Of a stretch of DNA of 64,000 bases, positions 11,280-62,200 are shown in pieces (position 1 is the stretch's first letter; each line of letters opens with the position of its first letter). Position numbers and translations under genes: made by a program. Under the pieces are notes generated by a model that saw nothing but the letters and a program-made list of their open reading frames with translations, had not been told where the DNA came from and ran no database searches. Source of the stretch: Liolophura sinensis (Eukaryota; Mollusca; Polyplacophora; Chitonida; Chitonidae); contig NC_088303.1 in NCBI RefSeq assembly GCF_032854445.1, positions 22,081,501 to 22,145,500 of the forward strand, read 5' to 3'.

Positions 11280-12240
11280 CTTATAAACTCACCATTGTGA
11301 TATGTTCAGATGAACTTTTATGCTTTCCTCGAGGGTGGTGAAATCAGTGGATGGCCTCTTCACACCTAGGTCTTTATGCTTTCCTCGATGGTTATTAAAG
11401 TCAGTGTTTGGCGTCTTCACACATAGGTCTGTATGCTTTCCTCGATAGTTGTGAAGTCAGTGTTCGGCGTCTTCACACCTAGCTCTTTATGCTTTCCTTA
11501 ACAGTTGTTAAAGTTAGTGTTTGACATCTTCACACCTATGTCTTTTATGATTTCCTCGATGGTTGTTGAATTCAATGTTGGGCCACTTCACAACTCAGGT
11601 CTTCACGATTTCCTCGATAGTTGTTGAAGTCAATGTTTGGCGTTTTCACACCTAGATCTTTATGCTTTCCCCGATGGTTGCTGCAGTCAATGTGTGGCGT
11701 CCTTCACACTTCTACGATTTGCACGTTAGATGACTGATCTATCATGAATCCCGCTGTACGTAGGTAATGTTGCTTAACGCCTTCCTTATATTTACTCAGA
11801 ATCTCTCATAGTAATTTGTAACAAGAGGAGCATGTTGTGTACGTAATGATTTGGAGAGTCAGGTAAACGTTCCGTAATTGCTACAGTCTTGTCAACGATT
11901 CGCTCATTACAGACACACCTTTACTTCTTGGCTTCATTTATCTCAATCCTGAAGCAAATGATTTTAAGATCTGTAGTCTAGTCTTGACACATCTCTAATC
12001 CACGTATAATTAAAGGACAAGCCGTAATTATTTCCGCATCTGGTATTTACACATCCGAGAGATTATAAACTGAACGTCTTTCGTTCCTGTTGGTCGTAAT
12101 TATTAACGCCAGCCAAGTTTCTTTATGTTATACAGTCATTTGCTGCCAGATTTGCAAGGTGCTTAAACATTAATTTGGAGGGGTTGTAAATATTTAAAAA
12201 ATATAAAGATACCCCTTTTAAAATTTTTATGTGATCATAT
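11280..12240. repeat. Dispersed repeat, copy 2
   Basis: The same ~57-bp units (11,320-11,720) are followed by matching tail sequence (tgatctatcatgaatccc; cgattcgctcattacagaca; cagtcatttg). The duplicated 130-bp block of copy 1 is present once here. Confidence 0.72.
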
Positions 12241-41285: not shown

Positions 41286-44200
41286 CTGAAAACCAATCAC
41301 TCAAAGGGTTGGCAGCAGAATCTGACTGAGACGACAGCTGCCTGGCATGTATTACAGGCAAGTTCAGAGTTCACTTGTTGTAAGACATCTTATCTGCATA
41401 CATCAGACATAGTTTTAGGTGAAATTAACATCAAAACTTACTGTTATTTTACATACAGTTAAAGGCCTGATGGATCAACAGGCCTTGAGGCAGTATATAA
41501 GTACATAAGCTCCTGACATTCTCTGTGCAGAATACCACTAAGTATTTAACTTCTGTGTGAATGTTTGAATGACGGCAGTATTTCAGCCTTACCATGACAA
41601 AAATACTTTAGAACCAGGAATCAGCTGAGTTGGTCAGATCTGCCAACTGTTCAAACCGTTGACTACTGTTCATAAGCTACAAGAATTCATTCCAATATGT
41701 CTTTTTATTACAATAAAAAAATGAAAGTAAGGTTAAGTGATGTGACTAAGATTATACCTCCAGTGAATCAAGGCGCTCCAGCTTAGCCTGGCTGATAGTG
41801 AGGACATTGCTCCTCGTGGGTGACCTGCTTGGCACCGGGGAGATCGGGATGGAGGTGGTTGAGTGAGGGGACCCTGGGATAGGGACTGGGGAGCCTGAGA
41901 CACTGGCAGATTTGGCTGGGGATACCTGTGTGGTACTCAACGACTTGCGGGGAGATCCCGAAGGTGACAAATGCAAATGTAGCAAATCACTTTCACTGCT
42001 CTGGAAAACAACAAAAACAAACACACCAAAAACATCAAATTCTTTTTCTTTTGGGAAGAATGAGTTGTACTGAAAAATAGTTTGTACTAATTTTTAAACA
42101 CAGCATATCACAAGAATTCTGTTGTCGGCCATGGAAACACTACAATTGACACACCTTGTGCACGAAGTGATTGATACTCTCAGACATACAAATTCGATGC
42201 AATTTGTTGAATGTTACAAACCAAATACTACAAAAAAAGCCACAAAACTAGCTTTAAACCCAATCAAATCTGGTAAGTTGATAAGATAAATCACAGTGTG
42301 CGAATGTGGTTTTACCACAGAATAAGTACTGAAAGATCAGTAAAGTGTTTAAGTCTCACAATAAGAGGCTCTATGGTAACTTTTGATGCACTTCTTGTCT
42401 GTACCCTGGGTGAGACTTGGCTTGGTGGCTCAGGAGGGGCAGAGAAGGAATTCTCTACTTGGCTTGTGTCTACAGTCAGGGGGTGGTGTGCATCTTTCTC
42501 AGGGGTGGTTTCCTGCTGAGCCTGAAGTACAGGTATCTCCCAACCTGTTGTCTTCTCAATGGGCACTGTGACAGAGGCATCAGTCGATGATGGTGTGATC
42601 TGGAGACGCAGTGGGGACATCTGACAATCTGACTGATCGACAACGCCCACCAAGGGCAATGGGAAAGGGGAATCACCTGGGGATGAATCGGGAGTCTCTA
42701 GTCTTGGTTCGGGATCAGTGGATTCCTGAATCACAGATGTGGAAGTGGAAGTGGAAGTAGAAGTGGAGGTTGTCACTATCTCCTCAGTCGTTTCACTCTC
42801 TTCCTCTCCTGTGGAGGAACTTTGTGAGGAAGTTTGCCCACGCAATGTTGTCGCTGTACCTTCAAAGCTGACACGCATCTCCTGTCCATGAATAGGAGAG
42901 CGACTCTTTATGGAGGACTGTGTAAATGACTGGCTCTGTGATGACCTCTGCATGGACTGGGAGGTTACAGAGGCCAGTTCGGGAACAACTGAACTCAGTA
43001 TAGCTGTTCCATCTTGTAGATCTCCCCCTCCCTGTGCCTCCTCATCCTCTTCACTGGACTCTTCCATCATGTCTACATCCTCCTCTGTTTCAGCATCAAC
43101 ATCTAAATCAGCAGCCTTGTCTGAATCTGTTACCATAGCCTCTACTTCTTCTTCAGAGCCTGGACAAAACACAGCAGCCACAAATCTGTCATCATCGTCA
43201 ACTTGTCAAGTTGGTATTCAGTACAGGCTTTTCAACTATTATTGAATGAAACTTTGTTAAGTGCCAAAATATTTGCTGTTTAACTTGTCTGATTGGTGTT
43301 TCACGCCGCACTCCAGAATATTTCACTTATCTGACAGCCGTCAGCATTACGATGTGAGGAAACCCAAGACCATCTGCAGGTTGCTGACAGACATTGCCAC
43401 ATTAGGCCGGAGAGTAAGCCAGCATGAGCTGGATTTGAACTCACAGCCATCACATTGGTAAGAGGCTCCTGGGTCATTGCGCCATCCTGGCACACTAACC
43501 ACCTCAGCCCCCTGTATGATTTTCGGGGTTCCAATAAAGAGGTTCGCAAGTACAGATGATCACAGATAATTAAGTCCATATCATGGCTTCTTGAAAACAC
43601 ATATGTATTGAGTAGCTATGAAATTGTCTCAGCCAGGACTCTGCTAAAGACAAGACTGATTGTCCTTTATAGTTTTTTCTCCAGTGGAACTGTTTACTTC
43701 ATTTCCTTTCAATTTGTTAAATACAGTTTACGGATTAACATGGCATAAATACTGTATATAGAGAATATTTATTGTGAAAATAAAGGCTTTGGCGGCCCCC
43801 ATTAAACAAGCAACTGGAAACTTTTGCATGTCAAGCCCCATCTTGGAAGTAACAAAGTGATTATTAGACAATATACATCACCTTCCTGTAGTCTTTGGGA
43901 CCTGTTAAAATTAAATGTAATGTCATCATCAACGTCCACTTCTATATCCTCCTCGTCATCTGCATCTTTCTGTTTCCTTGGTGACAGATGATCAACACGA
44001 GGGGCAAACTTTGGAGAAATCCTGAAACACACAGTTCAATCTTTCATTATTACATGGTACTGAATGTTCCAGGATACTGCTGGAAAGAACTGAGCAGAGG
44101 CTGAGAGAAAACATTGCCACAAGGTAAATCTCGACATAATTCAAACAGGCCATATTGTGATTAAACTGTGGTCCTAACACTCAGAAAATTAGATCAGAAA

Positions 44201-53200: not shown

Positions 53201-56200
53201 CTCATGAAAAACTGTGTAACCAATTTGTAACTAATGTGTGGGACATCCAGTTGACCGCTTATGATTGGTCAATTGCTTGACTCACAGTTTGAAAAGGTCA
53301 AAAGTCAGTATTGCCTCAGCTTGCCGCATAATATATTCAGTTTATTATTTATTCTCGGGACGGTATGTGACTCACATGTAAGCTTGGAGGAGGATAAAGG
53401 CCATTACCCCCTTCACTGTCCCAGAGGTCCGACAGGGAGGGGCCCATGTGCTCCATCAACCCATCAATCATCAACAGATCAGTCTCCTTCACATTGCTGC
53501 CAAAATAAAGGATAAGTTGCATTCAAAATCCACGATGATTTTTTGAACATTTATTTGCCTCTTGTATACCTGTAACTGCATACTCAAGAATTTTTCACCT
53601 ATATGATGACGAGTCAATTAATATGTGGAGGAAAACTGAATGCTTAGAGTTAACTGCTAACCTATGGCAGGTTATTGGCTAACTTCCCCACATGTTACAT
53701 ACGCTATTTTGTGAGAAGACAAGTAGTCTCGTGCAAATATCACGGTCCTCAAAAGAGAGTTTTGTCTACTGATTCCTATCACCAAGGCTAGCACATTGGA
53801 AATTGGGGAAATACTGGAAATTCTCTACCTAAGAACAGAGCTCAACCTACTTTGATGCTGAAGGGGAAGAACCATGCAAAATGTTGAAGATAATGTGAGG
53901 CCCTGTACTTGAGGCAAGCGGTTTCTAGTTGAGCATTTCCTAGTCTCTGCCACTGATAGCTGAGGGTAAGAATAAGCTCTGGCAAATCTAGGCAGAAAAA
54001 GAAGATGCTCTCTCGCTTTTACTGATGTCATATCTGCACCTTGAGGGCACACTTGTGTTTCATGCATCTATTGTGATGGTGGGTGACAGAGAAAATAGTT
54101 CATCAATAAGCACCTGTGAAGTTTCTTCAGTTCCATTCTCCTGTTATTGAATGTACTATACAAACTGCTTGCAGGGTAGGCATACTGTTCCTGGCTCAAC
54201 TCCTCAACCTCTGCAAAACAAACCGATCCTTGGATGAGTCACAGGAAGTCAAATTATTCTCAGACACATCAGGCAAGAAAGGAAATGACACAATGACATT
54301 TACAAGACTGTCTGTAAATGAAAATGTATGTCTGTCAATGTTATGCTTTCAAAAGTCTTTAGAACTTCATAATACAAAAAAAAAATACCGAGAGAAATCT
54401 ACGAAAACAGATAATATTTCTCTTACATCTAAGTTGACATATTGTACATAAAATTTATGTTGAAGTTTCTACATCTTAACCTAGTTAAGGTTGCTATTTA
54501 CAGACAAATCAGATAATGAATAAGCAAGGCATAACACCAAGACCAGTGACTTATTTTGCCTGGAAAAATGACTTGCTGTGATGTCCCGAATGATCACCTT
54601 TCATTTAAAAATTCATGAGACCTGCACATACCATCATTCTCTGGGAGAAGTCCTCTATGTATGAACCAGAGGACCACAGTCAGCTGCTGAAGGACTAGTT
54701 CTATCACCTTCAGTCTGGTGCTTAACTCATGTACACCTGAAAAGTGAACAAGCTTTTGATACGACAAGTTCAAATCAAACTGAAAACATGAAGAAATACA
54801 TATTCATTTATTTATTTATTTACTTGATTGAGTGAATATTTTTATTTATTTATTTGATTGGTGTTTTACGCCGTACTCAAGAATATTTCACTTATATTTC
54901 ACTTATTATGGTGGGAGGAAACTGGGAACCCGGCGGAAACGCACCACCATCCGCAGGTTGCTGTCAGACCTTCCCACGGATGGCCAGAGGGGAAGGCAGC
55001 ATGAGCTGGACATGAACTCACAGCGACTGCATTGGTGGGAGGCTCCTGGCTAATTGAGTGAATATTTCACTTATACTATGGCAACAAGCATTATGGTGAG
55101 AGGAAACTTGGTTGAGCTCAGAAGAAACCTTTCCATGCTGGACTTAAACTCAGAGATTGTATTGGTTAAAGGCTCTTAGGTAATTGTCCTGTGCTAACAT
55201 GCTAGCTTCTAGGCCACAGATGCCCCCTGATGTGAGTCAAATGTAAGCACTACCTGACCGGCCGCATTTCTCATACCTTGGTCTGTTATGGGAGATGACT
55301 GTGCGAGAAAGGCTTGGAAGATGGTGGGCATGTGAGAGAGTTTCTGGTGACAGTGATGGAGAGTTTGCAGTGCCCTCTGGTCCATAGGCACTCCCGACCA
55401 ATCATACAGAGGCACACCTGTCACAAATATCGCAGGTATGTTCATACATAAATCAACACAAATTTATAACAAAGTTATAAGTTAAAGTTACTAGTTACAT
55501 ACATGTTCTTACTACAACGGTTCTATTATTTGGTACCTGTCCAGACCAAAAATATCTGATATGACACAGTGAACATGTGGAGTTCTTACTACAACGGTTC
55601 TATTACTTGGTACCTGTCCAGACCAAAAATATCTGATATGACCCAGTGAACATGTGGAGTTCTTTCTTACTACAACGGTTCTATTACTTGGTACCTGTCC
55701 AGACCAAAAATATCTGATATGACCCAGTGAACATGTGGAGTTCTTACTACAATGGTTCTATTATTTGGTACCTGTCCAGACCAAAAATATCTGATATGAC
55801 CCAGTGAACATGTGGAGTTCTTACTACAACGGTTCTATTATTTGGTACCTGTCCAGACCAGAAATATCTGATATGACCCAGTGAACATGTGGAGTTCTTA
55901 CTACAATGGTTCTATTATTTGGTACCTGTCCAGACCAAAAATATCTGATATGACATAGTGAACATGTGGAGTTCTTACTACAAAGGTTCTATTATTTGGT
56001 ACCTGTCCAGACCAAAAATATCTGATATGACATAGTGAACAACAGGACAGAAAATTTTTGACTGGGGTTTAAAAGTCTCTTTCAATATTATTTTGTTTAT
56101 ATCATGACGACGTCTCCTTCCAACAGGCTGGACCCATTGTTAACATATTGATGGTGCTGCCTCAATAGAACGCCATGACAAAGACACCAAACACAACGCC

Positions 56201-59200
56201 ATACCAAACCAAAGTCAGTGTCAAACTAGGTAGTACCAAAATTGCCATGGTTTAAGTCTTTGATATGACTTGCTTCAGACTTCAGACCCCGAATGTACCA
56301 TTTACAAGGCAGAAAACCAAAATGGTAAAACGAATCATTTTCATAAAATATCTTTAATATCACTTTTTCTTGCGATGAAATATTTTTTGCCTTATGGTGT
56401 AGACTAAAAAGCTGAAACCACCTAATACATATTTTGCATTTTATTTCGCTTCAACATCACAACTTTCAATTGCTGTGCTTTAAACAACATAAAATGTGGC
56501 TGTCCCTTTAGAGAAACAGTATCTGAACAGGTACAACAACAACACACTCTTCACTTACAGGTTTTATCAATCATGTCCTTGATTTCTCCAACTCTTGCCC
56601 AAGACCAATCCAGTAAAAACTTTAATGTACAACCTTGTGGAGTGAAGTCTGCAAATGTCAGAAAGACAAAATATTTTATATGCTAAGGTACCTGAAAATG
56701 ATCTATTGGAGTTCACAGCCTAGTAATACATTGTATCTAAAGTGCACCAACACTAGGGATTTATTATAGACCATTAAGGAAAATTGAGTGAACTCAAACT
56801 TGCTTACTTTCAGAGGAATTGGCATATTCAAGAAAACATCCTTGAAAGTCTTAATCCAGCAGGAGTCCAGTGGAAACAAAATTTAACTATAACAACTGTA
56901 AGTGGTACAATGTAAATAAAATTTGCACTTTTTTCAGTGCATATGATATTTAACAAACACTGAGAACTCATACACCACTCACCTCCATCAGCCCACTGTG
57001 TTATACAGGTCTTGATGAAACTGACCAGGTTATGATTCAAACACAACGACAGCAGCGCCTCCCTGAGCTGCTGCTGAAATAAAATGGAACGTCATGTGAA
57101 AGTGCAGATCATGTTACTTGATAAACTGACCATATTATCCTCTGAAAAATTTATAATAAAACTATACTATTAGTTAAACAAAATCCCTTGGCTCTTGGGC
57201 TCATCATTTACAAGGGCCCCAAATCATTAACCTTATGCGTGCACACAGACATGTAGATATTTTATAGCTCAGCAATATAGGGGGCATTACAGCATTCACA
57301 AGAACTGAGAAGCCAAATATGTACTAGGGTCAGAGAAAGTAGGTCAAAGGTCAGTGATGCAGACTTGGGCAAGTGTCAGGTAGTCCATAGCTATGAAGTG
57401 AAGTACTACAGAGTATAGCATATTACAACAATTTATGGAATTCAGTTTTGGTTTATTTCAGATGGACTCGCTGACAGGGCATGATCCATACAACATGATG
57501 ACAAAGACAAACTATGAGGAACTATAAAAGTTAAAACAGTACTTAAAACAGTGCCAGGATTGAACCCACATCCTTACGAATGAAAGACACACGTCTACAG
57601 CCACTTGACCAGCACTCATTGGGCAGGTATTAGATTAGAACATCACACTCTACTACTGGCTGAGGAGTAAGGCTGCTGATGTACTTACTGGCTTGTGTGG
57701 TGTGGGTGGGTGTCAGTTAAGGCTGCTGATGTACTTACGGCTGGTGTGGGTGGGTGTCAGTTAAGGCTGCTGATGTACTTAAGGCTGGAGTGGGTGGGTG
57801 CCAGTTAGGGCTGCTGATGTACTTACACATAGGGGTGGGTGGGTGTTGGTTAAGGCTGCTGATGTACTTAAGGCTGGAGTGGGAGAGTGCCGGTTAAGGC
57901 TGCTGATGTACTTAAGGCTGGAGTAGGTGGGTGCCAGTTAAGGCTTCTGGTGTACTTACTGGTTTTGATGGCAAAGACTGGTGATGATCTTACTGGATTG
58001 CGTGGGAGGTCCTCGGTTAAGGCTGTTGATGTACTTACTGGTTGGGGTGGGTTGGGGTGGGTGGGTGTCAGTTAAGGCTGCTGACGTACTTACTGGCTGG
58101 AGAGTAAGGTTGCGGATGTACTTACTGGCTGGGGAGTAAGACTGCTGATGTACTTATTGGCTGGAGAGTAAGGTTGCTGATGTACTTACTGGCTGGGGAG
58201 TAAGACTGCTGATGTACTTGCTGGTTGGGGAGTAAGGTTGCTAATGTACTTACTGGCTGGGGAGTAAGACTGCTGATGTACTTGCTGGTTGGGGAGTAAG
58301 GTTGCTAATGTACTTACTGGCTGGGGATAAGGCTGCTGATGTACTTGCTGGTTGGGGAGTAAGGTTGCTAATGTACTTACTGGCTGGGGAGTAAGACTGA
58401 TGATGTACTTACTGGCTGGGGAGTAAGACTGCTGATGTACTTACTAGCTGGGGAGTAAGACTGCTGATGTACTTACTGGCTGGGGAGTAAGACTGCTGAT
58501 GTACTTACTGGCTGGGGAGTAAGACTGCTGATGTACTTGCTGGTTGGGGAGTAAGACTGCTGATGTACTTGCTGGCTGGGGAGTAAGGCTGCTGATGTAC
58601 TTGCTGGTTGGGGAGTAAGACTGCTGATGTACTTACTGGCTGGGGAGTAAGACTGCTGATGTACTTACTGGCTGGGGAGTAAGACTGCTGATGTACTTAC
58701 TGGCTGGGGAGTAAGACTGCTGATGTACTTGCTGGTTGGGGAGTAAGACTGCTGATGTACTTACTGGCTGGGGAGTAAGACTGCTGATGTACTTACTGGC
58801 TGGGGAGTAAGACTGCTGATGTACTTGCTGGTTGGGGAGTAAGGTTGCTGATGTGCTTACTGGCTGGGGAGTAAGACTGCTGATGTACTTGCTGGTTGGG
58901 GAGTAAGGTTGCTGATGTACTTACTGGCTGGGGAGTAAGACTGCTAATGTACTTACTGGCTGGGGAGTAAGACTGCTGATGTACTTACTGGCTGGGGAGT
59001 AAGACTGCTGATGTACTTGCTGGTTGGGGAGTAAGACTGCTGATGTACTTGCTGGTTGGGGAGTAAGGTTGCTGATGTACTTACTGGCTGGGGAGTAAGA
59101 CTGCTAATGTACTTACTGGCTGGGGAGTAAGACTGCTGATGTACTTGCTGGTTGGGGAGTAAGACTGCTGATGTACTTACTACTGGCTGGGGAGTAAGAC

Positions 59201-62200
59201 TGCTGATGTACTTGCTGGTTGGGGAGTAAGGTTGCTAATGTACTTACTGGCTGGGGAGTAAGACTGCTGATGTACTTGCTGGTTGGGGAGTAAGGTTGCT
59301 AATGTACTTACTGGCTGGGGAGTAAGGCTGCTGTGGCTCAAGGTTCTTGGGAGAAGACCGGCGTACACACACAGGTTAAACATCTCTGCAGGGGCCAGGA
59401 GACAGTTTGGGCCCTGCTGCTGCAGACTCATCAACACCTTACAAACAGACAGCACAGAATCACTACATCATACAAACACAAACATTTACATGTGCAGTGG
59501 TGCATCCCTCTACCTCTACAGGGAAGGACTGGGGAAAGAGAATTTCAAATGAGCACTGATGCACTATTATTTGATAATGTTAATTCATTATTGGAAAAAT
59601 TATCATACTATAATGTCTTTTCATTTCAAATATCACATCAGAAATAACAAAGATTACTTTTCTTAAATTCAGGTATAACAATGTAAACATAAGGCCGTGC
59701 CTTTACAACTAAAATAAGCACCAGTAAATTTGCATGACAGTATAAGGTTTCTGCATTAAGGAATTAGTCAAAGCAAAAGGGAACAGCTTTCCTGACTTTC
59801 TTATTCAATGCTGACAATTATGTGTGAGCAGGATTTCTTTAACTGTCTTTGTGTTGCACATATCAAACAACAAATTCCGAATAACTTACCTGTCTTTGAG
59901 TTCCCTGAAATCTTGCTGAAACAAAACTTGTCTCAAGAACACATTTAGCTTCTGCAACAGAAAAGCACAGAACAACTTTCATGAAAACATACATATGTAA
60001 ACTTGAACAGCTCAGCTGTTTACTGTCCCCTTTCATTACCAGCTCTTAATGTTTCACATCTTTCTTTCTGGTATATATACATGTACATTCTTCACCATAC
60101 TTACGGTTACTCAATAGTCAATGCTGTGTCTACATGTATGTATATAAAGGTTTTATTCACATCTGTCTTGTTATAGGATATTGGTTGGTTTTCAGACATC
60201 ATCAGACTGAACTTGCAAGATGTACAGTGAAAAAATACATAACTATGTGCAGAAAAACAACGCAGTAATTTTGAAACCTGATGTGGATGATTGATGAAAA
60301 CATTAATTTAAATGACAAAAGCAAGTCTCCATCTACTCACCGAACGCCAGAGATGATGGATAGAAGTGTTGTTCAGGGGCCAGAGGAGCATTATTGATAA
60401 ATTTCCTCACAGTATCATAGCCAACATGGACTGCCTGTAACACAACACTATTTTGTTGACTTATTCCAAGTATTGAAATCCGGCTCACTATTACTGTGTT
60501 CATTTAACAACTGACTAAATACTGTATGCTGTATCAAGATTTCCCTGACATATGAGTACAACATAGGTGACAGGAAGTCAGAAATCCTAGTGAGATTATT
60601 TACACGTATTTATTTGATTGATCTTTTACACATATACTCATATGAAATATTTCAATTACATTATGGTTTATAAGGGGAAGAAACGGTACAGTGCCTGTAG
60701 AAAACCACTGTACATGGTCAGAAACCTCACAGCTCCAGGTGACATTTTAAAACTAACAATTCTGATTCTAAACTTTAAAGCAGAATGAAATTTTATAAAA
60801 TGTAACTCAAAAAGATACTTTCTGAAAGCTGTTAAGTCTGTGAATGAAAGAAATTTGTATGAAAACTTTAGTGGTAAACAATCAAATATCTTGTTCAATT
60901 TACTTGCTAGTTTTAATACAACCAGATTAGTTTGGGTGCCCAACTGTTCAGGAGCCAAACACTTTTTTGGAACTTTCTTTTGGGTTCTAAATATGTCCCT
61001 GACTTCTCACGTAAAGCTGTAGCTCCTTCACAGAGAGTTCAATCCAACACCTGAATCTAGCGGCCTCGAATGAAGCATGTGACCTCTCTGTGCAGACCGT
61101 TTACATTATAAATGAACGATGTCAAAATGTTTGGCAAATCTCACCAGCAGGCTATCGGGGGCTGCAGTGTCTGTAATTTGGTCCAAACTGTAGAAGGCAA
61201 AGTAGGAACACAATTCCATGGAACCAGTAACCCTAAAATATAGGACAAAGAAAATTCTATTTGTGTTGCCAATAGTACCAATGGCCTGTACTTCTACAAA
61301 ATGATAAAAATGTTACAATCTTCTTTAGTTATGGCACGTCCTAACATCTAGGGTTATAGATAAGTTTCTGAGCTTTCATTATAATGTTGTAACTAGATAC
61401 TGGAATAAGGCCCTGGCTTTTCAGTGCAATTTGTTCACATTTTTAATTTAATTTTGGAGGCAGAACCACATTGGTTGCACCAGCCAGTTTCAAAGTTTTA
61501 CAAAAATTAAAATTTTATCAGTCAACACAGAGTAATGCCTTCAGAGTTTGCTTGAATATTGAATAAACACCTTGCAAACATGTGAAAAGGTTGAAGATAT
61601 ACAGTATATTCCAACTGACCACAAACGACTTGACAAAAAAGTCTTTCAGCCTTGATAAGCCATAACAAATGTGAGCCTACCTTAAAGAGGTGGGCATCTG
61701 GGCGTGGTACCATCTGTTCATATCAAAGAGTCCGAGGTACGCCCTGGTATTGGTGGATGAGCCTGCTTCCTGAGCCTCCCAGATCACCACACTAAGGCTG
61801 AGGTCAGGGCCATGTAAACCTGCTGCCGACAGAAAGTACCACATACCCCACATTACTGTATTTCAGCTGAACTTTGGTAAGAAGAAGCATATAAAGGCCT
61901 GAAATGACATCTTTGTCACTGAATGACACTGAAGTTTTCCTGGTAAGAAGTTTATCAGAATTCACAAAAAGCTCATGAGTTGCATTTTAATTTATTTATT
62001 TGATTGGTGTTTTACACCATACTCAAGAATATTTCACTTATACGACAGCAGCAAGCATTATGATGGGAGGAAACCAGGGCTTGGCGCTTTAGGTTAAATA
62101 CGGTATATCCAAAACTACCCTTCCTCACTTTTTTCGGATTGTATTTTAATGAATTAAATGCACATAAAAGCTTGAATTCTACGGTGGGCTTTGCTGAGAT

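Follow-up and report, generated by a model that had tools for sequence, protein, structure and literature searches.

Minisatellites at 5' splice sites are known from the human genes ABCA7, CBS and IFI6; the ABCA7 study is reportedly that of De Roeck et al. from 2018, the CBS array, at which alternative donors are reportedly used, is that of Lievers et al. from 2001, and the IFI6 unit reportedly measures 12 base pairs (bp), so that donor choice keeps the reading frame. Here we describe a comparable array in the polyplacophoran mollusc Liolophura sinensis, found in a 64,000-nucleotide (nt) stretch of contig NC_088303.1 (assembly GCF_032854445.1; hereafter the window). It lies in a gene which, by homology, is ELYS (ELYS / AHCTF1), encoding a nuclear-pore protein, and its 32-bp unit consists of the final 22 exonic bases of ELYS exon e3 and the initial 10 bases of the following intron, on the minus strand. 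In the explanation that we consider likely, a minisatellite has grown at the ELYS 5' splice site, the first donor would be mostly used, and the array would be a tolerated burden.

The best documented of the human arrays is the variable number tandem repeat (VNTR) in intron 18 of ABCA7, in which a 25-bp unit is repeated directly next to exon 18 and the opening two bases of the array serve as the exon donor (PMC5954066). Use of the donor in the next unit retains one unit, shifts the frame and yields a premature stop; the frameshifting isoforms amount to 14 +/- 6 and 2 +/- 1%, the 2% being taken as one-unit retention, and alleles in people range from about 12 to 427 units. VNTR length in ABCA7 is inversely related to expression and directly related to exon 19 skipping, unit retention is independent of VNTR length, and the authors do not attribute the lower expression to the proportions of retention transcripts (PMC5954066). 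In CBS, a polymorphic 31-bp VNTR, c.1444_1467+7(16_21), occurs in 16-21 copies whose units differ by single substitutions (PMC2630376). For the IFI6 (6-16, G1P3) minisatellite, downstream repeat units are described as serving as donors (PMC4526556); the underlying work (Turri et al., 1995) is cited there and in PMC3618361 and PMC2572611.

By its anatomy, the ELYS array belongs to this known kind, and on paper it would work in the same way. As in ABCA7, a short-unit array sits at an exon donor, and use of the donor in the next unit would add one unit and shift the frame. However, while the ABCA7 array is described as starting at the GT and its splicing has been measured, the ELYS array also repeats 22 exonic bases, and 14 of its 39 clean junctions are GC. 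In this respect it comes close to CBS, for which the coordinates yield a unit of 24 exonic and 7 intronic bases, as against 22 and 10 in ELYS. Unlike the IFI6 unit, with its reported 12 bp, the 32-bp unit of ELYS shifts the frame. As a new member of this kind, it has an unusual mixture of GT and GC and an out-of-frame unit, and it lies in a nucleoporin gene; a literature search aimed at molluscs, of partial coverage, turned up nothing on such arrays.

The first-pass annotation of the window, made from the letters alone, had named the gene as ELYS, and our search bears this out. The 201-residue translation of six exons (e1 to e6, Table 1) matches the PDB chains 7vci_T (E 7.5e-25) and 7r5j_T0 (E 2.1e-24), both named Protein ELYS, which we take to be the Xenopus and human chains. 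A single-exon read-through open reading frame gave one weak, unrelated match in the PDB (E 1.2); it was the multi-exon query that found ELYS. The Pfam family ELYS (PF13934) matched below its cut-off in four of nine stretches scanned, and Pfam scans of e3 and of the e4 stretch gave no match. All six exons join as one open frame with AG acceptors and GT donors, and e3 is of phase 0 at both ends, with proper GT/AG signals. At the boundary that matters here, the end of e3 and the start of e4, HSSLTPQP/QQLREALL, align in near-register with PSSLSQEEQLEAIL of 7r5j_T0. The acceptor of e4 itself sits in three tandem CAG triplets (57068-57076, ...TTTCAGCAGCAG), making alternative acceptors 3 or 6 nt apart possible.

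Exon e3 terminates in CAGCAGCCTTACTCCCCAGCCA, and the intron starts with GTAAGTACAT. The array begins at 59333, within the exon, and thereby takes in the donor of a coding exon at 59311, the exon end being placed by frame and homology. With a 32-bp unit repeated head to tail 39.3 times (90% matches, score 2026), it is a minisatellite in the usual range of 10-100 bp units, and the annotated number of about 39 units is reproduced. So is the repetition of about 22 exonic bases, the exon copy agreeing with the consensus unit at 21 of 22 and with the unit ending at 58572 at all 22. Read in the donor register, the clean array (59311-58093) contains 39 junctions, made up of 24 GT, 14 GC and one AT; the whole register, from 59311 to 57656, has 49 sites, comprising 31 GT, 14 GC, three TT and one AT. 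The downstream units thus carry donor sequences, with GT or GC at 44 of the 48 downstream sites, and the presumed true donor is, as had been proposed, the first in a ladder of near-identical donors. The two unit types of the annotation, CAGCCA with a GT donor and CAACCA with a GC donor, can likewise be recognized: CAACCA is found in 13 of the 14 GC units, CAGCCA in the remaining one (at 58572).

In other respects the earlier description needs amendment. The span that it gave for the minisatellite, 57660-59437, holds a real array, but it includes a decayed tail with a period of 44 rather than 32 bp (6.5 copies, 85% matches). Together with this tail and the stretch between, the clean copies occupy about three quarters of the 2.2-kb intron. 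Successive donors were said to add multiples of 32 nt, which holds near the exon; however, the spacing is broken by a 3-nt insertion in the unit at 59180 and by the loss of 1 nt in the unit at 58317, so that later donors do not add exact multiples (131, 163 ... nt).

Table 1. Coordinates of the ELYS exons, the presumed donor and the array features in the window
Feature	Position	Strand	Evidence
ELYS exon e1, 94 nt, in the model tested	60341..60434	-	
ELYS exon e2, 62 nt, precedes e3	59890..59951	-	
ELYS exon e3, 126 nt, phase 0 on both sides, codes for VLMSLQQQGPNCLLAPAEMFNLCVYAGLLPRTLSHSSLTPQP; last 22 nt form the exonic half of the repeat	59312..59437	-	Vertebrate ELYS alignment
Presumed true 5' splice site, GTAAGTACAT	59302..59311	-	Frame, homology, U1 pairing
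32-bp minisatellite, 39.3 copies; GT type CAGCCA/GTAAGT, GC type CAACCA/GCAAGT	58073..59333	-	Tandem Repeats Finder, unit table
Opening base of the +96-nt GC donor, the sole downstream ladder site predicted to keep the ELYS frame open (+32 residues)	59215	-	
Decayed tail of 44-bp-period units; TAAGTACATCAGCAGCC mostly kept, exon-like half mostly lost	57668..57959	-	Tandem Repeats Finder, sequence
ELYS exon e4, 91 nt, QQLREALLSLCLNHNLVSFIKTCITQWADG; tandem CAGs at the acceptor	56983..57073	-	
ELYS exon e5, 90 nt	56559..56648	-	
ELYS exon e6, 141 nt	55277..55417	-	

What can be said about the origin of this array? As the exon tail aligns with vertebrate ELYS, it was probably the exon that seeded the array, and the exonic half of the repeat would probably be ancestral ELYS coding sequence that predates it. 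A genome search with a 161-bp array probe, in which very common words were skipped, returned a single candidate place, with all 14 matches inside the locus; this result is strong, although not absolute, evidence against a dispersed repeat. Since the search located the unit at the array locus only, it is less likely that the array stems from a foreign or dispersed minisatellite. Genome searches for an ELYS retrocopy, which would reveal the spliced junction, and for a haplotig or a second locus with the ELYS exon region found neither. Because the exon tail can be aligned as ELYS coding sequence and the search gave no second source for the unit, the start of the array at the exon-intron junction, as first suggested in the annotation, is favoured. 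The reverse course would have a pre-existing minisatellite enter the intron and capture or replace the end of the exon, so that the last seven codons and the donor would be repeat-derived. It could draw on a genome rich in tandem repeats and on the motif GTRAGT, which occurs in the consensus unit of five of 30 other array rows (counted at four or more copies and a period of 12-120 bp; two of the five overlap). However, the near-register of the exon tail with vertebrate ELYS and the lack of any further copy of the unit in the genome search speak against such a capture, which we hold to be decidedly unlikely.

For an array seeded by the exon, we envisage a duplication across the exon-intron junction, followed by amplification through slippage or unequal exchange, with copies farther from the exon mostly more decayed. 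The last tail copy (before 57656) shares 21 of the 22 exonic bases with the exon copy, although adjacent tail units are diverged. Both end copies carry a C at position -16, where the clean units free of indels have T in 25 of 37 and C in 12 of 37, the exon copy included; with C in that many units, the marker is modest evidence only. These patterns would fit old end copies and a younger, homogenized middle. Two linked changes, G to A at -4 and T to C at +2, set the GC type apart from the GT type, and the two types are interspersed, as is expected from block duplication; the GC-donor variant may have arisen essentially once and then spread by block amplification. Mean unit-to-unit differences are 3.76 at lag 1, 2.86 at lag 2 and lowest, 2.69, at lag 10, and as lag 10 is lower than lag 2, there is no clear higher-order unit. 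This is a history that we infer from one allele. The same variation bears on the reliability of the assembly, since tandem arrays are often mis-sized and the length of this one could be wrong or even invented. But substitutions are interspersed among the units, two of which have an indel, and the array contains no exact repeat of any 160-bp block, so that long reads should place the array uniquely; an assembly artefact is therefore extremely unlikely.

Which of the donors would be chosen? For U1 pairing we used a U1 end that agrees with the three U1 loci fetched from the same genome. The true donor pairs with -7.0 kcal/mol, a value equalled by most GT decoys, and the GC decoys pair with -4.0 kcal/mol. 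GT and GC sites within e3 are weaker, at best -5.2 compared with -7.0 kcal/mol at the junction donor, and the donors of e1, e2, e4, e5 and e6 reach -11.0, -12.1, -11.9, -6.2 and -5.7 kcal/mol. On the assumption that e4 is the next exon, 40 of the 44 downstream GT or GC sites lead to a stop within the array, three (+32, +64 and +131) to a stop in e4, and one leaves the frame open (Table 1). The expectation that a downstream donor shifts the frame unless three units are added was thus right but incomplete, as in-frame additions past +96 meet stops inside the array. If the decoys were used to any substantial extent, ELYS protein would be lost, and the first donor is therefore likely to dominate. 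Judged by eye, an in-frame stop would result if the first repeat unit had a GT; the idea that the GC at the unit nearest the exon was selected for its open frame was dropped, 14 of 38 clean units past the exon copy being GC.

We propose that the spliceosome would mostly pick the first donor, the only one to complete the 126-nt exon beside a real acceptor, the likely reasons for this preference being exon definition by that acceptor and earliest transcription. The nearest decoys (+32 GC, +64 GT, +96 GC and +131 GT) may be used at a low rate. Premature stops would be present in nearly all of the resulting transcripts, which nonsense-mediated decay would remove, so that the array would represent a tolerated burden rather than a device. 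As in human ABCA7, array length may modestly alter ELYS output or the skipping of the next exon; skipping of the 91-nt e4 would shift the ELYS frame.

Several points weigh against this proposal. That the first donor is used is an assumption based on frame and homology, and this donor is only intermediate in U1 pairing, which gives it no built-in advantage over its copies. Where identical donors are duplicated, the downstream one may be preferred in certain circumstances, and leakage would then be heavier. The alignment at the tail of e3 is short and gapped, and proof of the direction in which the array grew would take an outgroup that lacks it.

Heavier use of the decoys could also be a regulated property, with the array acting as a length-dependent ladder of donors that diverts a variable share of ELYS pre-mRNA into unproductive isoforms, the repeat number and the GT/GC make-up setting the dosage. 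Such a ladder would be well served by decoys of which all but one are unproductive and most of the GT type match the true donor in U1 complementarity, the GC type being weaker, and it would recall the ABCA7 VNTR, whose length tracks lower expression and more next-exon skipping. Yet in ABCA7 retention is independent of length, and the authors do not hold it to be the cause of the lower expression (PMC5954066); in ELYS, the bases of the decoy donors are no more conserved, and no more purged, than other positions. In a small test, counted by hand from the unit table with the indel units 59180 and 58317 dropped, donor positions -3 to +6 are variable at four of nine, compared with eight of 23 elsewhere in the unit (Fisher p=0.70); the donor positions thus vary like the rest, with no hint that decoys have been selected for or against. 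We therefore regard a regulated ladder as unlikely.

Secondary structure might offer another means of setting the first donor apart. The GT unit is predicted to form a hairpin, CUUACU-(8 nt)-AGUAAG, of -5.5 kcal/mol, compared with -0.8 kcal/mol for the GC unit and -4.2 kcal/mol for the true donor, and a 301-nt stretch of the array beats 100 of 100 shuffles in folding (z -5.2 as RNA, -3.65 as DNA), with z-scores that are inflated by the tandem repetition. Local hairpins could hence mask the decoy donors, and perhaps also promote slippage, in line with a lower predicted chance of being unpaired for the 23 GT decoys (mean 0.005) than for the 14 GC decoys (0.10). However, the true donor would be masked equally (0.003), and the five other ELYS donors span 0.00013-0.155. 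The exon-end region has only a slight advantage over its shuffles, 16 of 200 folding equally well (z -1.4), and among 1000 mononucleotide shuffles, 5% match the fold of a single GT unit and 14% that of the exon copy. Hairpin masking as the selector of the donor was rejected, since the true donor is predicted to be masked as much as its decoys; some role of the hairpins is possible, although as a selector they are unsupported, and we consider masking a very unlikely explanation. Equally improbable in our view is that the array serves as a rheostat of ELYS dosage, in which all decoys but one would lead to nonsense-mediated decay, and output would be tuned, heritably and differently between individuals, by the number of repeats and by the balance of strong, hairpin-masked GT units and weak, open GC units.

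The units also contain potential acceptors. The pseudo-exons of about 19 nt proposed in the annotation exist on paper, but the AG that would give rise to them has a poor pyrimidine tract (0.40, compared with 0.53-0.80 for five real ELYS acceptors); of the two AGs with better tracts in the consensus unit, one precedes the donor by 3 nt (0.67) and the other overlaps the donor G (0.73), and pseudo-exons of 32n+3 nt are conceivable. A branch-like CTTAC motif is present in every consensus unit. For recursive splicing, in which an acceptor joined directly to a donor (AG/GT) would allow stepwise removal, no positive evidence emerged. Titration of U1 by about 44 sites in one pre-mRNA, also raised in the annotation, appears implausible, because 40 U1 matches in the genome pass the family cut-off. 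The U1 small nuclear RNA genes were seen to form a tandem cluster with a spacing of about 2 kb and many copies scoring alike (contig C10 at about 30.03-30.10 Mb, and contig C627; loci L004-L006).

Tandem repeats make up 9.8% of the window. In a sample of 11 pieces of the genome, 110,000 bases in all, they cover 28,158 bases, two pieces giving 15,851 of these. In a genome so rich in repeats, some arrays would be expected at splice sites, and over many genes an event such as that in ELYS would not be improbable. Among the other repeats encountered, one 10-kb piece (L011) is a tandem repeat over 9,997 of its 10,000 bases, and more than half of another (L012) is occupied by a 51-bp array of about 115 copies. 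Within the window, a separate 77-bp minisatellite (6.9 copies, 55505-56041) lies in an ELYS intron and leaves the flanking exons e5 and e6 untouched. Two arrays about 11 kb apart (183-553 and 11317-11709) have nearly the same 57-bp consensus, which suggests a dispersed minisatellite family, and a GTGGAA-type microsatellite (42735-42767) encodes a Ser-Thr run within an open frame of 297 codons that has the same strand as ELYS.

As its kind is already known in human genes, the ELYS case is of moderate interest in itself. Its copies of the splice site could confuse RNA splicing, and with 39 clean junctions, many of them identical over more than 20 bases, it constitutes a natural donor-competition experiment in a conserved nuclear-pore gene of a non-human genome. 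As such, it could reveal how, among many equal donors, a single one is chosen by the spliceosome on the basis of position alone. Its presence further suggests that ABCA7, CBS and IFI6 in humans are instances of something that recurs across animals.

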